Origin: Cymbomonas tetramitiformis
Taxonomy: Eukaryota > Chlorophyta > Pyramimonadophyceae > Pyramimonadales > Pyramimonadaceae
Assembly (NCBI GenBank): GCA_001247695.2
Contig: LGRX02031351.1
Span: forward strand, 1 to 11,991
DNA length: 11,991 bases
Direction of reading: 5' to 3'
This document shows, in pieces, positions 1 through 11,092 of this stretch. The stretch's first letter is position 1. Each line of letters starts with the position of its first letter. The position numbers and the translations under genes are program-made. A model generated the notes under the pieces. It saw only the letters and a program-made list of their open reading frames with translations, was not told where the DNA came from and made no database searches.

Positions 1-273
1 CGCCGAACATGACGAGAATAAATTAATTAAGATATTGTGGTGTAACAAACCTTAAAAAGTATTCCACTTTGTGAAGAATCCCCCCCTAAGATATGCGAGA
101 CTGTGAAAAAGGCGAGTCGCAACAAACCGTGGTAAAAAACAATTAGAAAAATGTTTTTGGGAGCCAAGTTGCGATTTGCATGGGTTTGAATGCACCTGAC
201 ATGATATATATCCTACCAGGATGCGTGTGACGGCATATTCCCGTGTTCATGATGATGTTGGCTAGCTATATTG
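1..273. other. AT-rich non-coding flank upstream of the retroelement reading
   Basis: I see no gene, RNA gene or clear repeat here. The stretch is AT-rich, with several A runs. The reading frame of the downstream pol gene is closed by a TGA at 253-255, and the first in-frame ATG is at 274. I compared the segment by eye with 6160-7200 for an LTR pair and found only weak similarity around the word TTTTTGGG. No Gag zinc knuckle and no protease D-S/T-G motif can be read here. Confidence 0.6.
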
Positions 274-3200
274 ATGATTCGTAACGACAAACCGTTAAAT
301 TTATGCCCCCATACCGTCGATTTAGCTTGGGTACATCCCTATGTACCCAGACCCTCTTGGGTACATCCCCATGTACCACCGGGTAGTGGACAACAGGGAT
401 TTGCGAGCACGGTCGACGAGGCCGGGGATCACCCTGACCCTCTCAGCTTTTTCGCTAGCAAACAGGAGGCGAACGGAGCATTTGCGTTGCTTCCGCCAGC
501 GGTGCGTAGGCAGGCGATAGAGGATCACGCGGCCGGGAAGCCACCCACCTGGCACGCGCAGGCAGCCGCGGCGCTCCAGCAGGGCCGGGGTCTGGTCGCG
601 GAGCGACGACCCCGAGCACGGCGTAAGCGAGTGCGTTGGCGTGACCAGGTCGCAGCAGTCGGTCAGCCTGGTGCTGAAAGTGGCCCCTCCACCGAGCAGC
701 CGCCGGGACCAAAAGTCCCCACCGCCCCGAGCCCTCAGAGTCAGAAGTCGCGAGCCTCGGCACCAGTCGTGCCGCCAGACACTACCCCGCCGCCAGCTCC
801 GCAGACCACAGACCCGCCGGTACCGGCCGCCCCGCCAGGTACTACCTCGCCGCCAGCCCCACAGACTGCTCAGGCCTCCCCGGAGCCGCCGGAGGACGAG
901 ATAGACGAGACGGTGTCGCCGGAAATCTGGCAGCAGCTTAGGGATCTGGAAAAGGAGTTCGCAGATGTCATTTGCACAGAGCTGCCGGAATCAGTCCAGT
1001 CAAGGGAATTCAAGTCCGGCGTCCGGCTCAGGCCAGATTGGAATGGGAACGCCTTGCACCGGCGAGGGTACAAGCTGTCGCAGGAGGAGTTGCGGCAACT
1101 CCGGCAACAGCTAGATGAGCTCTTAGCCAAAGGGTACATACGACCCTCGGCCTCTCCGTGGGGCTGCCCTGTGCTGATGGTCCCCAAGCCGAGTAATCCC
1201 AAGGAGTTGCGTCTAGTCATTGACTACAGACAGATCAATGAGATCACAGTCAAGGACAAGTACCCCCTCCCGGATGTCCAGAGTCTCCTAGATGATCTAC
1301 AAGGGGCTACCGTCTTCTCTACGATGGATGCCCTTTGGGGATTTTGGCAGGTCCCTATGAAAGCAGAGGACGTGGAGAAAACCGCAATGACTACGCACTT
1401 TGGAGCGTACGAGTGGTTGGTCATGCCTATGGGATTGTCAAACTCCCCAAGTACCTGGCAAAGGATGATGCAACAGTACCTCCGGCACCTACCCTTTTGC
1501 AGAGTATTTGTAGATGACATCATGATTTTCTCGGCTGAGGTTCCGGGTAAGAGCGCCCATGAGGTACACCTCGACCACCTCCGCCAGGTCCTGGAGGCAT
1601 GCCGAAAGAATTCAGTCTACCTCAAAAAGTCGAAAGTCAAATTGTGCAAGCGATCAGTCCGGTTCCTAGGGCATGTGGTGGATCGGGATGGATGTCGTCC
1701 ACAGCAGGATAAGGTTGCGTCGGTACGCGATTGGCCAGACCTAGAAACTGTCACACACGTGCGACAGTTTCTGGGCATGTGTGGCTTCTACCGGAGGTAC
1801 ATCCAGAACTTCGCAGATATCGCGTACCCGTTGACCCGCCTCACCAAATCCGGCGTGGACTGGACCTGGGGCGAGAATGAAAAGGCAGCATTTAAACAGC
1901 TAAAAACTGCCTTGATCTCCTCCCCAGCCTTGGCCCTACCTGATCAAAAGGGTGCAGCAGACGGTTCCAGACCCTTCTTTGTGCAGACAGATGCCAGTGG
2001 AGTAGCACTAGGGGGTGTACTCATGCAGGATCAGGGACGAGGCTTACAGCCCTTGGCCTTTGAAAGCCGACAGTTCTCCAGCGCAGAGCAGAACTATCAC
2101 GCTGGGGAACGGGAGCTTTGTGCCATCCATCACTGCACCACGGTCACCTGGAGACATTATCTGATTTTCACATCATTTAAGCTCATGGGAGACCATAAAC
2201 CCCTTCAGTGGCTCTTCGCCCCAGCTAGGGAGCTCAGCCGACGTCAGGCTCGCTGGCGGTACGAGGACTTGGTAGAGGTAGGAGTCCATCAGATGGAGCA
2301 CGTGCCAGGGCGCTGTTTAGTAGTACCAGACGCGCAGTCCCGGCGACCAGACTATCAGGAAATGTCAGCCAGAGAAGGGTTGAAGGAAAAAGGGATTGTG
2401 GATCGCGCCACGGATGGGCCCAGAGACTCCGCACCGGCAGGCAAGGGGTCCGAAGAGGACGAGGATCCTACCTCTGTCCTCGGGGCAGTTGATTGCACCA
2501 CCGATGGATCTGATGGACCCGAGTACTCTGAGCCGAAAGGCAAGAGATGCGAAGGGGACGAGGATCCCACATCTGTCTTAGGCGCCACCTTCGAGTATAG
2601 TGATTCCGAGGACGAGTCCTTCCCTCCCACCAGTCCAGCACCGGTCATTGGTGAGCTCACCCATCTGAATGGGCTCACGTGGGTAGAGTCGCCGGCCCTT
2701 TGGCTGGACGCAGCTGCCACCCTAGCAGTAGGCGAGAAATCCTTGAGGGATGCCGAATCGCTAGCAGTCATGACCAGAGCAGACCGAGCTAGGGAACAGG
2801 CCACAGCAGAAGTCCAGAGTCACCCGAAGTTCCCCCACCCTGAGGCCCAGAGTCATCCAAAGGCAGCCGGAAAGGCACCTGAGCCCGTTAAGCCCCCAGA
2901 AAGTAGCTCCCACTACGACCAGGTCGTAGATCGCCAGGACTGGAAGCTGATCAGGGAGCGCTTTGAGGAGATAGCAGCCCAGTACGGGGTGTTTGACGTT
3001 GACGCGTGTTGCGACTCCATGGGCGTTAACCGGCAGGTTGACACCTATTGGACCGATTGCTTGAAGGAAAAGTGGCGCGGGAAACACGTTTGGTGCAACC
3101 CCCCTTACACGAAGGATTCAGACTTGATAGAAAGAATTCTTCGGCATTTCCTTGCTGAGTGGCGCGCCGATCCGGAAAACACCTCAGCGATGTTCCTTCT

Positions 3201-4848
3201 GCCAGACTATGACGCCCCCTGGAGGCGGTTGATTCACCCCAAGTATGGGCTTCATCCGGTCAAAGTCTTTGACACGAAGGACGAAAAAGGTCGTCCCACC
3301 CACCTCTTCGAGTCCCCTGATGGAGGTCGACCCCCGCTGCGCTGGCCGGTCCTTCTGGTGTGGGCCCCAGCAGCCAGCAGGGCAAAGCCCCGAGCGCCGC
3401 CTGCGCGAAAGGACAGTGAGGCAGAACCCGACGAGCCTTTAGTCACTACAGGGGTTGCAGCGAGGGCCCGGGCAGCATCAGGCCCACTGAAGGCTGATGA
3501 GTTCGTCCGCGCCTTGCAAGCGGAATACGAACGCAGCCAGTACCTCAGCTCGTTGAAGGAGGAACTGGTCGCAGCCCCACATCAGAGGACAGACACATTT
3601 CGCATGGTAGACGACATGATATGGCGAGTGGCAGAAGGGCGGTATCAGCTAGTGCTAGCTCAGGATTCCCCCCTCAGAGAGCTGGTGATGCGCGAAGCAC
3701 ACGAGTCCCCAGCAGCAGGGCACACAGGAAGGGATAAGACACTGGACAGAGTATCCCGTCGCTTTTGGTGGCCACGCATGAGCAAGGATGTCACCGACTG
3801 GTGCAAATCCTGCGTTGTGTGCCAACAGACCCGGCCACGCAACGGGTATCCAGACGGTCAGCTTAACCCCCTGCAAGTCCCAGTAAGACTGTGGCAAGTG
3901 GTTAGTATCGACTTCGTCACTGGGCTGCCCCGCACAGAGCGAGGGTACGACGCGTTTGCTACCTTCACGGACAAGTTGTCCAAGATGGTGCACGTAGTTC
4001 CCATGCTTTACGCTGACAGCTCAGCTGCACAGATCGCGCGCATGTATTTCGACCAAGTGTGGCGTTTGCACGGCGCTCCCATGAAGATCGGCTGTGATCG
4101 GGACTCCCGCTTCAGGGATGAGATGCATCTCGAGCTACATCGGTTGATGGGAGTCCAGGTTGCCTCTACCACGCCGTACCACCCACAAGGTGATGGGCAG
4201 GCAGAGCACACAAACCACACGGTCGAACGCATGTTGCGCGCGTACGTCGACGCCAACCAGCACGATTGGGATTTATGGTGTACCCCGGTCGAGTACGCCA
4301 TTAATGACTCTCGTTCCGCCGTCACGGGATTCACCCCTTTTGAACTGCCGTATGGTCACGCTCCGGCCTCTCAGCTGGACTTCTTCGTGGAGGCAGCACT
4401 TGCATCACGGAGAGGCCGAGCTAAGGGGGGGAGGGGCGCAGCAGTAAAAAAGGGTACGGCCCACGAGACAGCCCGCCAGTTTGTTCGCCAGTTGCAGCTC
4501 GCTAGGGAGAAGCTGCTCTTAGCTCAGCAGCAACAGATCGCCCAGTACGACGCGCGTCACAGGTCCAGGAGTTACGCAGTAGGCGATGAGGTTTGGGTGG
4601 ATGCCACGCACCTCACTCAGCCGGGCGACCGCGGGTTGCACAAGAAGCTGCTTAAGAAGCGCCTTGGGCCCCTTCGGGTGCTGGAAGTCTTTCACAGCGA
4701 CAGGCAGATGGCCCTTCCCGCGAGCGATAGAGGCGCACCGTCGGCCTATAGGTTGCAGACGCCTAAGCAGTGGAAAGTGCACGATGTGTTTACCGTGGAC
4801 CGGCTTTCGCCAGTAGAGTCGGGCAGCCGCTTCGTTGAGAGAGCTTAG
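274..4848 (+). CDS. Retrotransposon Pol polyprotein: RT, RNase H, Dam-like adenine methyltransferase, integrase
   Basis: Numbered from the ATG at 274, the product has 1524 residues. Residues 1-235 are low-complexity and proline-rich and contain no protease. RT follows, with catalytic D352 in FSTMDALWGFWQ and D414/D415 in the FVDD box. RNase H shows TDASG (D573), GERELCAI, GDHKPL and VPDAQSR (D686). An acidic, repetitive linker leads to a Dam-like domain at about 880-1032, with FDVDACCD at 907-914 and NPPY at 942-945. The integrase H2C2 finger is H1143, H1150, C1180 and C1183. Its core triad is D1213, D1275 and E1311, with exactly 35 residues between the last two. A GPY/F-like module (GPL at 1465-1467) precedes the TAG stop. 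In the family these enzymes copy RNA to DNA and insert the copy in the nucleus. The role of the adenine methyltransferase is unknown. Gag and protease are absent. Confidence 0.9.
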   Translation: MIRNDKPLNLCPHTVDLAWVHPYVPRPSWVHPHVPPGSGQQGFASTVDEAGDHPDPLSFFASKQEANGAFALLPPAVRRQAIEDHAAGKPPTWHAQAAAALQQGRGLVAERRPRARRKRVRWRDQVAAVGQPGAESGPSTEQPPGPKVPTAPSPQSQKSRASAPVVPPDTTPPPAPQTTDPPVPAAPPGTTSPPAPQTAQASPEPPEDEIDETVSPEIWQQLRDLEKEFADVICTELPESVQSREFKSGVRLRPDWNGNALHRRGYKLSQEELRQLRQQLDELLAKGYIRPSASPWGCPVLMVPKPSNPKELRLVIDYRQINEITVKDKYPLPDVQSLLDDLQGATVFSTMDALWGFWQVPMKAEDVEKTAMTTHFGAYEWLVMPMGLSNSPSTWQRMMQQYLRHLPFCRVFVDDIMIFSAEVPGKSAHEVHLDHLRQVLEACRKNSVYLKKSKVKLCKRSVRFLGHVVDRDGCRPQQDKVASVRDWPDLETVTHVRQFLGMCGFYRRYIQNFADIAYPLTRLTKSGVDWTWGENEKAAFKQLKTALISSPALALPDQKGAADGSRPFFVQTDASGVALGGVLMQDQGRGLQPLAFESRQFSSAEQNYHAGERELCAIHHCTTVTWRHYLIFTSFKLMGDHKPLQWLFAPARELSRRQARWRYEDLVEVGVHQMEHVPGRCLVVPDAQSRRPDYQEMSAREGLKEKGIVDRATDGPRDSAPAGKGSEEDEDPTSVLGAVDCTTDGSDGPEYSEPKGKRCEGDEDPTSVLGATFEYSDSEDESFPPTSPAPVIGELTHLNGLTWVESPALWLDAAATLAVGEKSLRDAESLAVMTRADRAREQATAEVQSHPKFPHPEAQSHPKAAGKAPEPVKPPESSSHYDQVVDRQDWKLIRERFEEIAAQYGVFDVDACCDSMGVNRQVDTYWTDCLKEKWRGKHVWCNPPYTKDSDLIERILRHFLAEWRADPENTSAMFLLPDYDAPWRRLIHPKYGLHPVKVFDTKDEKGRPTHLFESPDGGRPPLRWPVLLVWAPAASRAKPRAPPARKDSEAEPDEPLVTTGVAARARAASGPLKADEFVRALQAEYERSQYLSSLKEELVAAPHQRTDTFRMVDDMIWRVAEGRYQLVLAQDSPLRELVMREAHESPAAGHTGRDKTLDRVSRRFWWPRMSKDVTDWCKSCVVCQQTRPRNGYPDGQLNPLQVPVRLWQVVSIDFVTGLPRTERGYDAFATFTDKLSKMVHVVPMLYADSSAAQIARMYFDQVWRLHGAPMKIGCDRDSRFRDEMHLELHRLMGVQVASTTPYHPQGDGQAEHTNHTVERMLRAYVDANQHDWDLWCTPVEYAINDSRSAVTGFTPFELPYGHAPASQLDFFVEAALASRRGRAKGGRGAAVKKGTAHETARQFVRQLQLAREKLLLAQQQQIAQYDARHRSRSYAVGDEVWVDATHLTQPGDRGLHKKLLKKRLGPLRVLEVFHSDRQMALPASDRGAPSAYRLQTPKQWKVHDVFTVDRLSPVESGSRFVERA
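326..377 (+). repeat. Two 22-bp direct repeats, each containing an inverted repeat, at the 5' edge of pol
   Basis: CTTGGGTACATCC followed by C/T and then ATGTACC occurs at 326-347 and 356-377, a 30-base period. It encodes WVHPYVP and WVHPHVP. The first copy contains a perfect inverted repeat, GGGTACAT (329-336) and ATGTACCC (341-348), with a 4-base spacer. It sits where the sequence changes from AT-rich flank to GC-rich element body, so it may mark a junction. Confidence 0.75.
765..870 (+). repeat. Proline-rich in-frame repeat in the N-terminal part of Pol
   Basis: Two related units, near 765-806 and 829-870, encode PP-x-TT-x-PPAPQT. They lie in a Pro/Ala/Thr-rich low-complexity segment just before the RT domain, in the place where a protease would normally be found. 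Confidence 0.6.
2405..2586 (+). repeat. Imperfect in-frame 99-bp-period tandem duplication in the acidic linker of Pol
   Basis: The word EDPTSVLGA is encoded twice, at 2458 and 2557 onward, with a 99-base (33-codon) period. Similar Gly/Lys/Glu-rich residues precede each copy. The repeat lies between RNase H and the Dam-like domain, in a Ser/Asp/Glu-rich linker that also contains SDSEDES. Synonymous differences between the copies show it is not a very recent duplication. Confidence 0.75.
2911..3369 (+). other. Dam-like N6-adenine DNA methyltransferase domain inside Pol
   Basis: This in-frame segment lies between RNase H and the integrase zinc finger. It shows FDVDACCD at 2992-3015, a WRGKHVWCNPPY stretch ending at 3108 and a following hydrophobic FLLPDYDAPWRRLI element. 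This is the layout of the phage-type Dam family (Pfam Dam, PF05869), in which NPPY is the catalytic motif of amino-methyltransferases. The expected reaction is methyl transfer from S-adenosylmethionine to the N6 of adenine. DIRS-type retroelements are known to carry a related Dam-like domain near RT and RNase H; finding it in a DDE-integrase chromovirus is the unusual part. The active motif is intact, but activity and target site cannot be read from sequence. Confidence 0.8.
4846..4848 (+). other. In-frame TAG separating integrase from chromodomain
   Basis: The frame is open on both sides of this single codon. The codons right after it encode EIPPPPLDVSG, a proline-rich spacer of the kind that joins the integrase C-terminus to the chromodomain in uninterrupted chromovirus polyproteins. 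The immediate context is GCT TAG GAG. It could be a recoded stop (readthrough), a recent point mutation in this copy, or a reassigned codon. Reassignment is unlikely, because no other TAG or TAA occurs in about 1960 codons and the final stop is TGA. Confidence 0.85.
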
Positions 4849-6159
4849 GAGATTCCCCCTCCTCCGTTGGACGTCAGCGGGCGCAAGGAAACCCACGTCG
4901 AGAGGGTGGAGCGTTCGCGCACGCGCCAGCGCCAGGGCAGGAGGTGGACAGAGTACCTGGTCAAGTGGACAGGAATGCCCCGCAGTGAGAACGAGTGGAA
5001 GACCCGAGAGGATCTGGAGTGGGACGGAGCCGGCAGGCCCGGCGTTCCCAACCGAGCGTTGTTGGAATTTGAGAGGATCGAGGCTAAGAGAGTGGAGCGA
5101 GAGAAGCTTAGGGTCCGTAAGAGGCGCGACGAGTCCGCAGGAGCGGTATGGACCACGCTATCGGAGGAGCTCAAGGTAGACGGAGCAATGCCATGGGTGC
5201 CAAAGGAGAGGTTTGATGAGGAAGTAGGAACTTTCGCGAGAGTATCTGCTCAGAGCACCCTGCCGCCAGTCAACGGAGCCGCAACACTTGAGAAGGAGCC
5301 AGTCGGCCAGTCTAAGATTCTCGTATTGTTTTGTGGGACCGGGTCAGTCGAGAGTCAGTTCACTAAGCAATTTCCCAACAGCGAAGTAGTTGCCGTAGAC
5401 ATTCAGCCCAAGTGGGGCCCCACACATTGCGAGGATATCATGCGATGGGACTATCGACAGTGCAGACCAGGACACTTCGACGTAGTCTGGGCTAGCCCAC
5501 CTTGCACAGAGTACAGCCAAGCGAAGACGGTAGGCATCCGAGATTTGCGTGCTGCGGACAGGCGAGTTCGTAGGACATTGGAGATCATCCGGTACTTGAG
5601 GCCCGAAGCATACTTCATTGAGAACCCGAGGGGAAGAGAGCCCCACGGGTTGCACACGCGTCGCTGCATGAGCAATCTACCAGCTCCGCACCTCGTCACG
5701 TACTGCAAATACGGGACCGCATACAGGAAGCCCCCGCACATCTGGACCAACGTTCCGTTGCGCACACCCTTGCGAGTATGCGATTCCGATACGCCTTGCG
5801 AGTTCTTCCGGCAGCACGGTAGGCACGAGAAAGTAGCGCAAGGAGGGCGCGCGATGAGAGCCGGAGGTGTGTTCGCGAAGGGCATGGGAGCGCGAGAGAA
5901 TTTGTATGGGATTCCGTCAGCACTGTTAAAACAGCTTTTCCACAACCTGACCCTACATGAAGAGGTGCATGCGTTCCTGTCTGAACTGCTTGTCAGGGAG
6001 GATCTGAGCGAGATGAGCGTTTTAGTCCAGTCAGCTGTTGTTGAGAGTGACCCGCCCGAGTTTGAGCCGGAACCGATAGCGTTGGCGGGAGTGCGAGCTG
6101 AGGTGACGATCATACCTGAGGGCGGATGGGAATCTGACGCGAGTGGTCTTAGCGATTGA
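4849..6159 (+). CDS. Chromodomain plus C5-cytosine DNA methyltransferase, in frame with Pol behind a TAG
   Basis: This is a 436-codon continuation of the pol frame. It has no ATG before the chromodomain; TTG at 4867 is the only near-cognate option, and the ATG at 4975 would cut the chromodomain, so readthrough or fusion with Pol is the natural reading. The chromodomain (about 4891-5082) shows VERVERSR, WTEYLVKWTGMP and ENEWKTREDLE; family members bind methylated histone H3 tails. After a basic linker, the methyltransferase (about 5314-5970) shows motif I LFCGTGS (from 5326), motif IV PPC with catalytic Cys at 5503-5505, motif VI ENP at 5620-5628 instead of the usual ENV, and YRKPPHIWTN from 5722. 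The target-recognition region is short, which recalls phage and large-virus enzymes more than DNMT1 or CMT. A C-terminal acidic tail ends at TGA. Confidence 0.85.
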   Translation, partial: EIPPPPLDVSGRKETHVERVERSRTRQRQGRRWTEYLVKWTGMPRSENEWKTREDLEWDGAGRPGVPNRALLEFERIEAKRVEREKLRVRKRRDESAGAVWTTLSEELKVDGAMPWVPKERFDEEVGTFARVSAQSTLPPVNGAATLEKEPVGQSKILVLFCGTGSVESQFTKQFPNSEVVAVDIQPKWGPTHCEDIMRWDYRQCRPGHFDVVWASPPCTEYSQAKTVGIRDLRAADRRVRRTLEIIRYLRPEAYFIENPRGREPHGLHTRRCMSNLPAPHLVTYCKYGTAYRKPPHIWTNVPLRTPLRVCDSDTPCEFFRQHGRHEKVAQGGRAMRAGGVFAKGMGARENLYGIPSALLKQLFHNLTLHEEVHAFLSELLVREDLSEMSVLVQSAVVESDPPEFEPEPIALAGVRAEVTIIPEGGWESDASGLSD

Positions 6160-6180
6160 GAGCGTTGGGGGGCGTCGGGA

Positions 6181-6304
6181 AGAGCGGTGGCTCCAGCCTT
6201 GGCGAGACCAGGCGGCAGGTGAGAACCTGGGTAATCCATCCGAGAGAGCAGTGGCTCTAGCCTCGGCACAGCCAGGCAACAGGTGGAAATCTGTATAATC
6301 CATT
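6181..6304 (+). repeat. Imperfect tandem duplication, 64-bp period, right after the pol stop
   Basis: AGAGCGGTGGCTCCAGCC at 6181 recurs as AGAGCAGTGGCTCTAGCC at 6245. Each copy continues through CCAGGC, ACAGGTG or GCAGGTG, and TAATCCAT. The copies differ at many positions, so the duplication is old. The position directly behind the pol stop fits a retroelement 3' untranslated region; GGGGGGCGTCGGGAAGAG just before it could be a polypurine-like tract, but I cannot confirm this without an LTR. Confidence 0.75.
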
Positions 6305-6592
6305 TTGTAGGAGTCTACACTTGACTTCTTCTCTTCTTTACGGTTTCGGACTTATACTATTCTACACTTATTAAACGACCGCACGAGGTATGCTTACGAT
6401 TGGTCAACTACAAGACTTCGGTTTCGTAAATCTTAATAGTTATGCTTATGCTTTCAAGTGTATGCTTTCAATACACAATATACAGCGGATACGGCTCTTA
6501 CTTTTTATGTTACAATTCTCAGTTCAGTTCATCTCTCCGAAACGGGTTACTCTTAGAGTTCTTATACATTCAGGAACTCTTTCCATAACTCA

Positions 6593-6681
6593 ACTGTACT
6601 GAGTACTCCGTACAACAGTCTAGGCACCTCAGACACATCAACATCATTCTGATCGGTCCTACTGTACTCCGTACTGAGTAC
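6593..6681. repeat. Pair of 21-bp GTAC-rich repeats with swapped modules
   Basis: Positions 6593-6613 read ACTG, TACTGAGTAC, TCCGTAC. Positions 6661-6681 read ACTG, TACTCCGTAC, TGAGTAC. The two segments share the same modules in exchanged order. The function is unknown. Confidence 0.6.
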
Positions 6682-6780
6682 TTCTGCGTTTTATACTTAG
6701 CCGTTTTTCTTGCTCTTGTGCTTGCCTCCTAGCACATTTCACGCCCCGCGCTCGAGACGTGGAGACTGGAGACGTGGCGA

Positions 6781-8436: not shown

Positions 8437-9693
8437 CTAGATGGTTCTGGAACTGGTCGGCCAGCTCGGAGCAACGTGAGGGTGCAGTAGTTGCCGGCCT
8501 CCGGAGCCGGTGGTAAAATCATGCGTAGACAAAATTAAGGAATCCCCGATCTCAATCGCGGAGTCCCCAGAGCCCGGCGCCTCGTCCTCGGACGAGTACG
8601 GTGGCGGTGAGTAAGGCGGTGAAGAGGGAATTGGCGGATCAGGATCCACGAGCTCTGGCGGTAGCGGGAGAAAGCCGTAGAAGCGGAATCCCTGTCGCAG
8701 CTCCCGATACCGCGCCTGTCTCCGCGGCGGTATAGCATCCGGCACTGCACCACCCACCGCGTCGCCCAGCACGCCACGGAAAGGTGCAGGCGGTGAAGTT
8801 GCCGCAGTTGGGACTGCCGAGGCAGTCCACGCAGCACCACCGACCGGTGGAGCCGCGCATCCGCGTGCATTGGCACCACCGACACCGGAAACGGCGTGTG
8901 GTGCGGCGGTAGCACAAATTACGAAGAGTGCACACACCAAAGAGGAAGTGAGGAAAGACCTCCCCAAGCCGTGAATGCCCCTCCCACAGCCGTACCGTGG
9001 CTGCGGCAGCGCAACAGAGGCATCCTCGTCGTCGTCGTCGCTCGTGGCGTAGGTGCGGGTGACGGGAGGGCAAAAGGGGTTAGGCGGACCGGTCCACCCC
9101 TCGTCGGATTCAACCGACGCGGGCGGGGAGTGCGTGGCCGGTTCCGACACCACCGGCATGTTGGTGGTGAAAGTGTTGACGTTGAAAGTCGATGCCCCAG
9201 CCGTACGTGCCAACTCTGAGAACTCAGTGACGGCGGACACGAGGGCCTCACCGTCCTCCTCGCAGAATGAGCACGCGGAGAGGTCGGCGAAGATGTCCGG
9301 TTTCCCGCCCGCGAGCATGCAGAGGAGGGCGTCGAACTCTTCGGCGTCGTCGTGGTCGATGGCATGTTGAAACTTCGCGGCCAACACCGAGTTCTCGGTC
9401 GGCCTCCTCAGCGAAAGCGTAGGCCGAGAGGCCGGTCCGGCCCCCGTTCGGGCAGTCCCGATGCCAATGCCGTGCCTTGCCCTTCGCGCACACCTGGTTC
9501 TGACAATACGGTACGGTCGCACCGGTGTCGCGGTGAAAGGCGACCTTCTTCGAGATGGACTGTGACCAATTGTGAGATAGGATGTTAGTCCAGTGACGCG
9601 TCCAAAAACTCGGCCGTCCGTCCAAAAACTCGTCCGTCCAAGATTTGGACGGACGGACGGACGGACCGTTTTTTGGACGGACGGACGGACCAA
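8437..9693 (-). pseudogene. Broken retroelement Gag-like gene with extended CCHC zinc knuckle
   Basis: On the minus strand, one frame (to about 9400) encodes a zinc knuckle C-x4-C-x6-H-x4-C at 9505-9452, in CQNQVC and ARHWHRDCP. The rest of the protein, from about 9393 down to the stop at 8437, is in the other frame (one base further on). It encodes FQHAIDHDDAEEFDALLCML and LSACSFCEE, a DDDDED acidic run, a hydrophobic probable membrane segment (8958-8902, SFLTSSLVCALFVICATAA) and a Pro-rich tail with PPYSPPPYSSEDEA. Zinc knuckles of this kind mark Gag nucleocapsid proteins, which bind element RNA. The frame change and the absence of a downstream pol point to a decayed or non-autonomous element. 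The first 30 or so codons of the long frame are only the GGAC hairpin read as protein (repeated VRPS). I do not recognise the C-terminal region; an intron instead of a frameshift is possible. Confidence 0.5.
9616..9682. repeat. Nested GGAC/GTCC hairpin, copy 1
   Basis: Outer arms GTCCGTCCAAAAA (9616-9628) and TTTTTGGACGGAC (9670-9682) enclose inner arms CGTCCGTCCAA (9631-9641) and TTGGACGGACG (9645-9655). Both pairs are perfect. The structure interrupts the 5' part of the minus-strand Gag-like reading and adjoins a conserved flank shared with a second copy 894 bases downstream. Confidence 0.85.
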
Positions 9694-9844
9694 ACATTCT
9701 TAACATTCTAAGATTTCGCAAATTAGGGCTCCCATACTTAAGTCCATACTTAAGGAGTGTAACGCGTCGGCCCGCGTCGACGCCTGCGTTTCCCCATACT
9801 TAAGAAAATTTAAATTTTTTCTTCATACGTAAGGAAAATATACT
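9675..9844. repeat. Direct repeat module, copy 1 (GGAC edge plus CATACTTAAG words)
   Basis: From the GGACGGAC edge through TTCTTAACATTCTAAGA to the end at about 9844, this segment matches 10569-10742 closely over about 170 bases, with small indels. It contains CATACTTAAG at 9733, 9745 and 9795 and a variant (CATACGTAAG) at 9824, plus ACGCGTCGGCCCGCGTCGAC in the middle. It is probably the terminal part of a repeated element. Confidence 0.85.
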
Positions 9845-9889
9845 GTTTCCTTGCAAGTGGGGGGTTGTGGTGGGGGGCAAACAGGTTCG

Positions 9890-10513: not shown

Positions 10514-10585
10514 CGTCCGTCCGTCCGTCCGTCGTCCACTGTCCGTCCACAGTGGACGGACGGACAGTGGACGGACGGACGGACC
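10514..10585. repeat. GGAC/GTCC hairpin, copy 2
   Basis: Inner arms GTCCGTCCAC (10541-10550) and GTGGACGGAC (10552-10561) are perfect around a single A. After a one-unit slip, GTCCACTGTCC (10534-10544) can pair with GGACAGTGGAC (10562-10572), and further GTCC and GGAC units extend the arms outward. It corresponds to the copy 1 hairpin but has different internal spacing. Confidence 0.85.
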
Positions 10586-10742
10586 AAACATTATTCTTAA
10601 CATTCTAAGATTTCGCAAATTAGGGCGCCCATACTTAAGCCCATACTTAAGGAGTGTAACGCGTCGGCCCGCGTCGACGCCTACGTTTTCCCATACTTAA
10701 GAAAAATTATTTTTTTTCTTCATACTTAAGGAATATACACTG
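10569..10742. repeat. Direct repeat module, copy 2 (GGAC edge plus CATACTTAAG words)
   Basis: This is the partner of 9675-9844, in the same orientation and offset by 894 bases at the left edge. CATACTTAAG occurs at 10630, 10642, 10692 and 10721, so the fourth word, degenerate in copy 1, is intact here. Differences from copy 1 are scattered substitutions and small indels. Confidence 0.85.
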
Positions 10743-10783
10743 ACTCCCCCCTCCCCCCCTAACCAGGGACTCAGGGGGCATAA

Positions 10784-10831: not shown

Positions 10832-11092
10832 CACAGAGCTTGCCAATCGTATGCGATTGTCAAACGTGAGTCAGGCAGTAACCCTGTGATTTTTTGTTTC
10901 ATATTTTTGGGGCATTCACACAGAGCTTGACAATCGTATACGATTGTCAAACGTGAGTCAGGCGGTAACCCTGTGATTTTTTGTTTCATATTTTTGGGGC
11001 ATTCACACAGAGCTTGACAATCGTATACGATTGTCAAACGTGAGTCAGGCAGTAACCGTGCGATTTTTTGTTTCATATTTTTTGGGCATTCG
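10832..11092. repeat. Three 87-bp tandem repeats, each with a 24-bp palindrome
   Basis: Units begin with CACAGAGCTTG at 10832, 10919 and 11006, an exact 87-base period with only a few substitutions between neighbours. Units 2 and 3 contain a perfect 24-bp palindrome (10927-10950 and 11014-11037; half-site TTGACAATCGTA). Unit 1 has two changes in it (10840-10863). Each palindrome is followed within a few bases by TGAGTCA, a bZIP-type (GCN4/AP-1) core. Because 87 is a multiple of three, the minus strand stays open as a 29-residue repeat; that is a by-product of the period and I do not call it a gene. Confidence 0.92.

Follow-up and report, generated by a model that had tools for sequence, protein, structure and literature searches.

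Why should a retrotransposon carry DNA methyltransferases? The question is raised by an 11,991-nucleotide stretch of DNA from Cymbomonas tetramitiformis (contig LGRX02031351.1; "the window" hereafter means this whole stretch), in which positions 393-6305 are a fragment of a Ty3/gypsy chromodomain element whose Pol includes both a Dam-like (adenine) and a C5 (cytosine) DNA methyltransferase domain. This two-domain retrotransposon Pol, proposed in an original prediction made from the letters of the window, is confirmed in its architecture, and the Dam-like and C5 domains are predicted from their sequences to methylate A and C, respectively. The answer we favor, at slightly below an even chance, is that the element would use the pair to mark its own complementary DNA (cDNA) on A and C before integration.

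The fragment lies on the plus strand, as do all features in this paragraph, and is 98.7% identical by blastn to a complete copy on contig C22517. It is truncated at both ends and its own pair of long terminal repeats (LTRs) is missing. An open frame of 1530 amino acids (aa; 256..4848, stop to stop), the first ~137 nucleotides (nt) of which lie outside the element, encodes a reverse transcriptase (RT; RVT_1, PF00078, 1180..1677, frame residues 309-474, Pfam 5.4e-31), an RNase H (PF17917, 1966..2259, residues 571-668, 3.5e-27), the Dam-like domain (PF05869, 2929..3363) and an integrase (3667..4311) made up of a zinc-binding domain (3667-3840, Integrase_H2C2, 8.9e-24) and a core (3901-4311). An in-frame TAG (4846..4848) separates the integrase from a second open frame of 436 aa (4849..6159), which carries the chromodomain (PF00385, 4894..5019, residues 16-57 of that frame, 6.6e-8), the compact C5 domain (5314..5940) and a tail. 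The predicted order of domains, RT-RNase H-Dam-integrase-chromodomain-C5, is borne out by Pfam and PHROG matches and by the C5 motifs; NPPY (3097-3108) and PPC (5497-5505) lie exactly where they had been placed, and the expected LFCGTGS (motif I, 5326-5346) and ENP (5620-5628) are present. The claim that all domains share one frame stands as to phase, which is the same in both frames, but in the window copy the reading is interrupted by the TAG. This stop is private to that copy, as none of 19 others compared has a stop there.

Both domains were examined by family profile, motif and structure model. The Dam-like domain scores above the PF05869 cutoff in the window frame (33.6 bits vs. 28.1; 3.8e-8) and has the NPP[YFW] motif as NPPY; its AlphaFold2 model has a mean confidence (pLDDT) of 90.9. 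The C5 domain, at ~210 aa, is short, and falls just under the curated PF00145 cutoff (20.1 bits vs. 22, 4.8e-4; 21.8 bits for the excised piece). Thus, of the named families proposed as a check, Dam, RVT_1, Chromo and integrase were matched and PF00145 was narrowly missed. Two PHROG methyltransferase families match the C5 domain (1.5e-15 and 9e-12), and motif I, PPC, ENP and a class I fold place it among C5 enzymes. Its AlphaFold2 model (pLDDT 88.1) retrieves Dnmt3a first in Foldseek, with DNMT1 and HhaI close. Initial sequence searches of the PDB with single domains gave no meaningful match; a profile search with the C5 domain gave 38 matches, the best being a DNMT2-type enzyme (2e-6) and none a DNMT3. 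PPC is retained in 61 of 64 C5 matches and EN in 59, the exceptions being partial matches, and these counts come from a profile that favors intact rows.

The window copy is broken and rearranged, as might be expected of an assembly chimera or a chance fusion of unrelated genes. In the 851.7-Mb assembly of the same genome, where the window is contig C21686, searches gave 7956 first-look candidates with the C5 query and 8634 with the Dam query, of which 150 each were scored. All of the best 150 C5 candidates reach at least 98% identity across the query and have no stop inside it. By hand count, frames of 2750-2760 aa were found for 17/150 scored C5 matches and 26/150 scored Dam matches. On C22517 the complete copy spans 14,422 bp, with identical LTRs of 427 bp, termini TGT...ACA, a GTTTA target duplication and a purine tract before the 3′ LTR. 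Its uninterrupted frame of 2755 aa encodes, in series, protease (580-686), RT (1074-1259), RNase H (1315-1457), Dam, integrase (1935-2140, with both zinc-binding and core domains), chromodomain and C5; a frame of 1368 aa upstream gives a weak zinc-knuckle (CCHC) match below cutoff (0.0028). Among five stretches examined for LTRs, a second pair, 99.5% identical, was found on C20708, and no pair was found in place in the other three. The protease-RT-RNase H-integrase order, the LTRs, target duplication and polypurine tract of C22517, and a chromodomain behind the integrase are those of a chromovirus; a tyrosine recombinase, as in DIRS elements, was not among the Pfam hits of either C22517 frame. 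The family is a high-copy Ty3/gypsy chromodomain retrotransposon of which intact copies exist. Since the fusion recurs in dozens of full-length frames of this genome and in metagenome contigs of many families, chance fusion or chimerism was rejected, and we give it next to no probability.

Selection was measured within the family on 18 fetched copies plus the window and C22517 copies, with 19 or 20 usable per stretch. The ratio of nonsynonymous to synonymous variation per site (pN/pS) was 0.19 for Dam (6 nonsynonymous and 9 synonymous codon variants, 19 copies) and 0.12 for the integrase and following stretch (window 3556-4845; 10 and 26). For C5 it was 0.10 (3 and 9, 20 copies), or 0.03 once changes private to the window copy were dropped, values biased low because the copies were taken from a list ranked by C5 similarity, a bias that leaves Dam and integrase unaffected. 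For the comparison between families (the C22517 copy, that of P0001, and L148 as the third), direct counts of pN and pS were used; synonymous sites were saturated (pS 0.76-0.87), which left Biopython dS undefined. Here pN/pS was 0.07-0.14 for Dam, 0.04 for the integrase core and 0.20-0.24 for C5. Across 13 relatives compared with the C22517 frame, identity was 36-91% in Dam and 45-72% in C5, against 19-51%, 20-73% and 12-58% in the RNase H-Dam, Dam-integrase and chromodomain-C5 linkers. The Dam and C5 domains are both under purifying selection, and the ratio near 1 that was to count against the prediction was not found; both lie far below it.

Does the pair recur beyond this family? Protein searches seeded with Dam, C5 and RT, the last represented by its nearest 120 of 525 matches, yielded 146 relatives (identified here by P numbers). 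Those matches that bear a name are Cymbomonas tetramitiformis proteins, and the C5 sequence of P0001 is present at 100% on contig C20275 of the assembly. In hidden Markov model architectures, Dam was present in 34 of 36 C5-seeded proteins (exceptions P0049 and P0056), and C5 in 18 of 30 Dam-seeded proteins; ten others of the 30, mostly early-ending, gave no C5 profile match, and the remaining two, P0029 and P0030, may be DIRS-like. On an RT-RNase H tree of 129 rows of database relatives, the window falls within a 69-row group (support 91), in which Dam lies behind RNase H in 63 and the other 6 frames end before the Dam position. Pooling full-length rows from the three seeds, with 16 multi-RT rows and partial rows excluded and the C5 of P0140, which is of a different type, added by hand from Pfam, gave 92 relatives: 48 with both domains, 23 with Dam only, 2 with C5 only and 19 with neither. 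The 81 rows that came from the RT search divide into 38, 23, 1 and 19. Recurrence of the pair, proposed as a check, is therefore seen in the intact frames of other copies and in divergent families and fails in distant relatives that lack one or both domains, which makes the pair typical of the window's group and not of all its kin.

Among rows with both domains, 38 have the core order, with Dam in the middle and C5 at the end; both lie at the end in 4, C5 at the start and Dam at the end in 4, Dam in the middle and C5 at the start in 1, and both at the start in 1. Both catalytic motifs are kept in 29/38 core-order rows, the remainder being 7 with an altered Dam motif and intact C5 and 2 with a truncated C5. 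In seven Dam-bearing elements the chromodomain is followed by 237-294 aa that give no C5 profile hit; by profile comparison six of these tails, in three groups, resemble C5 (probability 94% for P0080/82/84, 90% for P0095 and 75% for P0096/97, vs. at most 5.2% in column-shuffled controls, 20 each), and that of P0109 was unmatched. No PPC or ENP was seen by eye in the tails of P0080, P0082, P0084, P0095, P0096 and P0097, which are possible pseudo-enzymes.

Other arrangements were noted as well. P0140, a gypsy element, has a Dcm-like C5 of another type in its N-terminal 670 aa, and the stretch before it looks by eye like a decayed Dam; P0029 has a Dam-like domain at 20.6 bits (cutoff 28.1) and an other-type C5 at 36.8 bits, above the Pfam cutoff. 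These two are possibly separate Dam-C5 pairings. Twelve chromodomain gypsy elements (P0111, P0112, P0116, P0117, P0121, P0124, P0127, P0128, P0131, P0138, P0142 and P0146) carry their Dam-like domain N-terminally in Pol, with NPPY altered in 9/12, and no C5 was found in them. Precomputed domains also list a PHD finger (PF00628) in P0027, P0035, P0038 and P0091.

Outside retroelements, the nearest C5 matches in the collections searched were phage proteins (28-34% identity, 11/50,697 records), and Dam matched 92 phage records. In a quick tree, nine phage Dams form one side of a split with support 100 and the Dams of retroelements, P0029 and P0030 among them, form the other; a single origin of all retroelement C5 domains received no clear support (split 55). 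In IMG/VR, the window C5 domain alone gave no relatives and an alignment query gave five weak loci (28-33%). One conserved C5 peptide pattern, run across 84,980 prokaryote genomes, detected no free-standing bacterial C5 gene and a single contig (NHEN01000032.1). That contig, filed under the Verrucomicrobiaceae metagenome-assembled genome TMED86, contains an integrase-chromodomain-C5 fragment; because it is itself a retroelement fragment, it is most likely a misbinned eukaryotic retroelement.

How might two writers serve one element? In the mechanism we favor, cleavage by the element's protease would leave the Dam-like domain with the polymerase part (RT-RNase H-Dam), where it could methylate adenines of the new cDNA during synthesis, and would leave C5 with the integrase and chromodomain, where it could methylate cytosines of the new cDNA in the pre-integration complex. 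Pre-marked on A and C at its arrival, a new copy would then stand a lower chance of being handled by the host as naked foreign DNA. The core order, which sets each writer beside a replication step, is consistent with such a scheme, as are the architecture, the intact copies, the identical LTRs and target duplication, the selection on both domains and the presence of the pair in divergent relatives.

Several observations weigh against self-marking. Relatives with neither domain (19/92) or with Dam alone (23/92) exist, and the tree offers four to five independent Dam-C5 pairs, on starred branches, which gives no power. The within-family C5 ratio carries the ranking bias noted above, within the family the chromodomain shows 4 nonsynonymous variants against 1 synonymous, both counts being small, and copies with indels number 1/19 for Dam, 3/19 for the integrase stretch, 2/20 for the chromodomain and 0/20 for C5. 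NPP[YFW], kept in 45/71 full-length Dam-bearing rows, is altered in the other 26, including 7/38 of core order. These altered motifs, and the C5-like tails (P0080/82/84, P0095, P0096/97) in which no PPC or ENP is seen by eye, would suit a reading in which the domains are mainly folded DNA- or RNA-binding modules whose catalysis is dispensable. We consider this improbable, as almost every row found by the C5 profile keeps its C5 motifs, though the profile favors intact ones, and both motifs survive in 29/38 core-order rows.

The model of the Dam-like domain raises a further possibility. Its fold matches are weak; an N6-adenosine methyltransferase of RNA caps ranks first (6irw, E 3.5e-4), with E. 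coli Dam at E 0.027, and RNA is accordingly a possible substrate. The domain might then act on RNA, either genomic RNA or its cap, while C5 acts on DNA, so that the two marks serve different steps. The weakness of the fold match, and sequence families that are those of phage DNA methyltransferases (PF05869, phrog_111), make this distinctly improbable.

Finally, of 20 private C>T/G>A changes in the young copies, 4 fell in CpG, with no excess over the expectation from the 25% of C+G in CpG (small numbers), and the test thus gives no sign of CpG methylation on the copies. This result also counts against site silencing, in which the chromodomain would take the integrase to heterochromatin and C5 would methylate DNA where the element inserts, silencing new copies soon after they land and at low cost to the host, with Dam labeling cDNA or being auxiliary. 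The position of C5 after the chromodomain in core-order proteins would fit such a role, as would the report by Burns et al. (PMC5741210) that transcripts of over-represented scaffolds are expressed near the median. In other orders, however, C5 lies at the N end (P0054, P0123) or at the end of proteins in which no chromodomain was found (P0048, P0050-P0052), and Dam is left unexplained; we regard site silencing as fairly unlikely. Both methyltransferases could instead act on DNA viruses in defense of the host cell, a role raised as speculation by Morozov et al. 2019 (PMC6338049) for DAM and DCM domains carried by transposons, and passages of PMC10675990 describe many integrated large DNA viruses in Cymbomonas. 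The Cymbomonas element offers no sequence evidence for such a role, and both domains are parts of a Pol that also contains RT and integrase; we allow it a very slim chance.

A broader reading, possible but one we lean against, is that a two-base marking kit has been built repeatedly: A and C methyltransferases would have been combined in gypsy-type Pol in at least five orders, and perhaps in a DIRS-like element, with copies double-marked at birth as a eukaryotic counterpart of phage DNA-shielding modification genes. If marking of copies by the element is real, transposons would be a source of N6-methyladenine and 5-methylcytosine in algal genomes, and their marks would be confounding signals in algal methylomes. 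Because a young and abundant family has retained two unrelated writers side by side, the self-marking idea is testable in an organism that, according to passages of PMC10675990, has already been nanopore-sequenced.

Elsewhere in the window, an LTR of the element's own family lies in reverse orientation (6306..6736, minus strand; 95% identical by blastn to the C22517 LTR, with the match itself spanning 6300-6737) directly behind the fragment, as a rearranged or nested insertion. Three tandem copies of 87 nt occupy 10832-11092, two of them with the inner palindrome TTGACAATCGTATACGATTGTCAA. GGAC-rich repeats and a 155-nt direct repeat (92%) lie at 9646-9850 and 10568-10747, and beside them is a minus-strand frame of 420 aa (8437-9699).

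How does the element compare with known systems? DIRS elements can carry a Dam-like domain in Pol, a likeness to the Cymbomonas element; they use a tyrosine recombinase, whereas the Cymbomonas element has a DDE integrase, LTRs and a chromodomain. Such DIRS domains are cited in passages of PMC5890265 and PMC6338049. The original prediction knew of no described Ty3/gypsy element combining both methyltransferases, and this holds within the open-licence papers searched, where no Dam and C5 in one retrotransposon Pol turned up; passages of PMC12695648, PMC12344493, PMC9998398 and PMC3627910 contain no such pair. A gypsy element with a C5 domain is described: KnitGypsy-Dnmt3 of Klebsormidium nitens (de Mendoza et al. 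2018, PMC5890265), which, in passages of that paper, likewise has its C5 within the gypsy Pol frame and under purifying selection. Its domain is of the Dnmt3 class, and no Dam-like domain is mentioned in those passages; the short, ~210-aa Cymbomonas C5 has phage proteins and, by PDB profile, DNMT2-type enzymes as its nearest matches outside retroelements in the collections searched. The Symbiodinium DIRS Dnmt3, a retrotransposon-borne enzyme that methylates CG according to passages of PMC5890265, offers an analogy for self-marking.

In Cymbomonas itself, the chromoviruses treated in passages of PMC10675990 share the genome and a chromodomain pol with the element described here; unlike it, they come without a methyltransferase in that paper's main text, where the word has 0 occurrences. 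Passages of Burns et al. 2015 (PMC5741210) report scaffolds covered more than 10,000x, where the modal coverage is 19-21x, with pieces homologous to chromodomain, RNase H and cytosine methyltransferase. These scaffolds are probably the Dam-C5 family, although in those passages the pieces are not joined into an element and no adenine methyltransferase is named. The DNA transposon Sola1-1_Ec32 of Ectocarpus, as described in passages of PMC12477816, also has a predicted DNA methyltransferase (N6A or N4C) and a self-marking idea attached to it, but there a single methyltransferase is encoded by a separate gene and has a ParB-like domain. C5 in gypsy and DIRS elements and Dam in DIRS elements were known; what would be new in the Cymbomonas element, judged by the papers searched, is the joining of Dam and C5 in one Pol.

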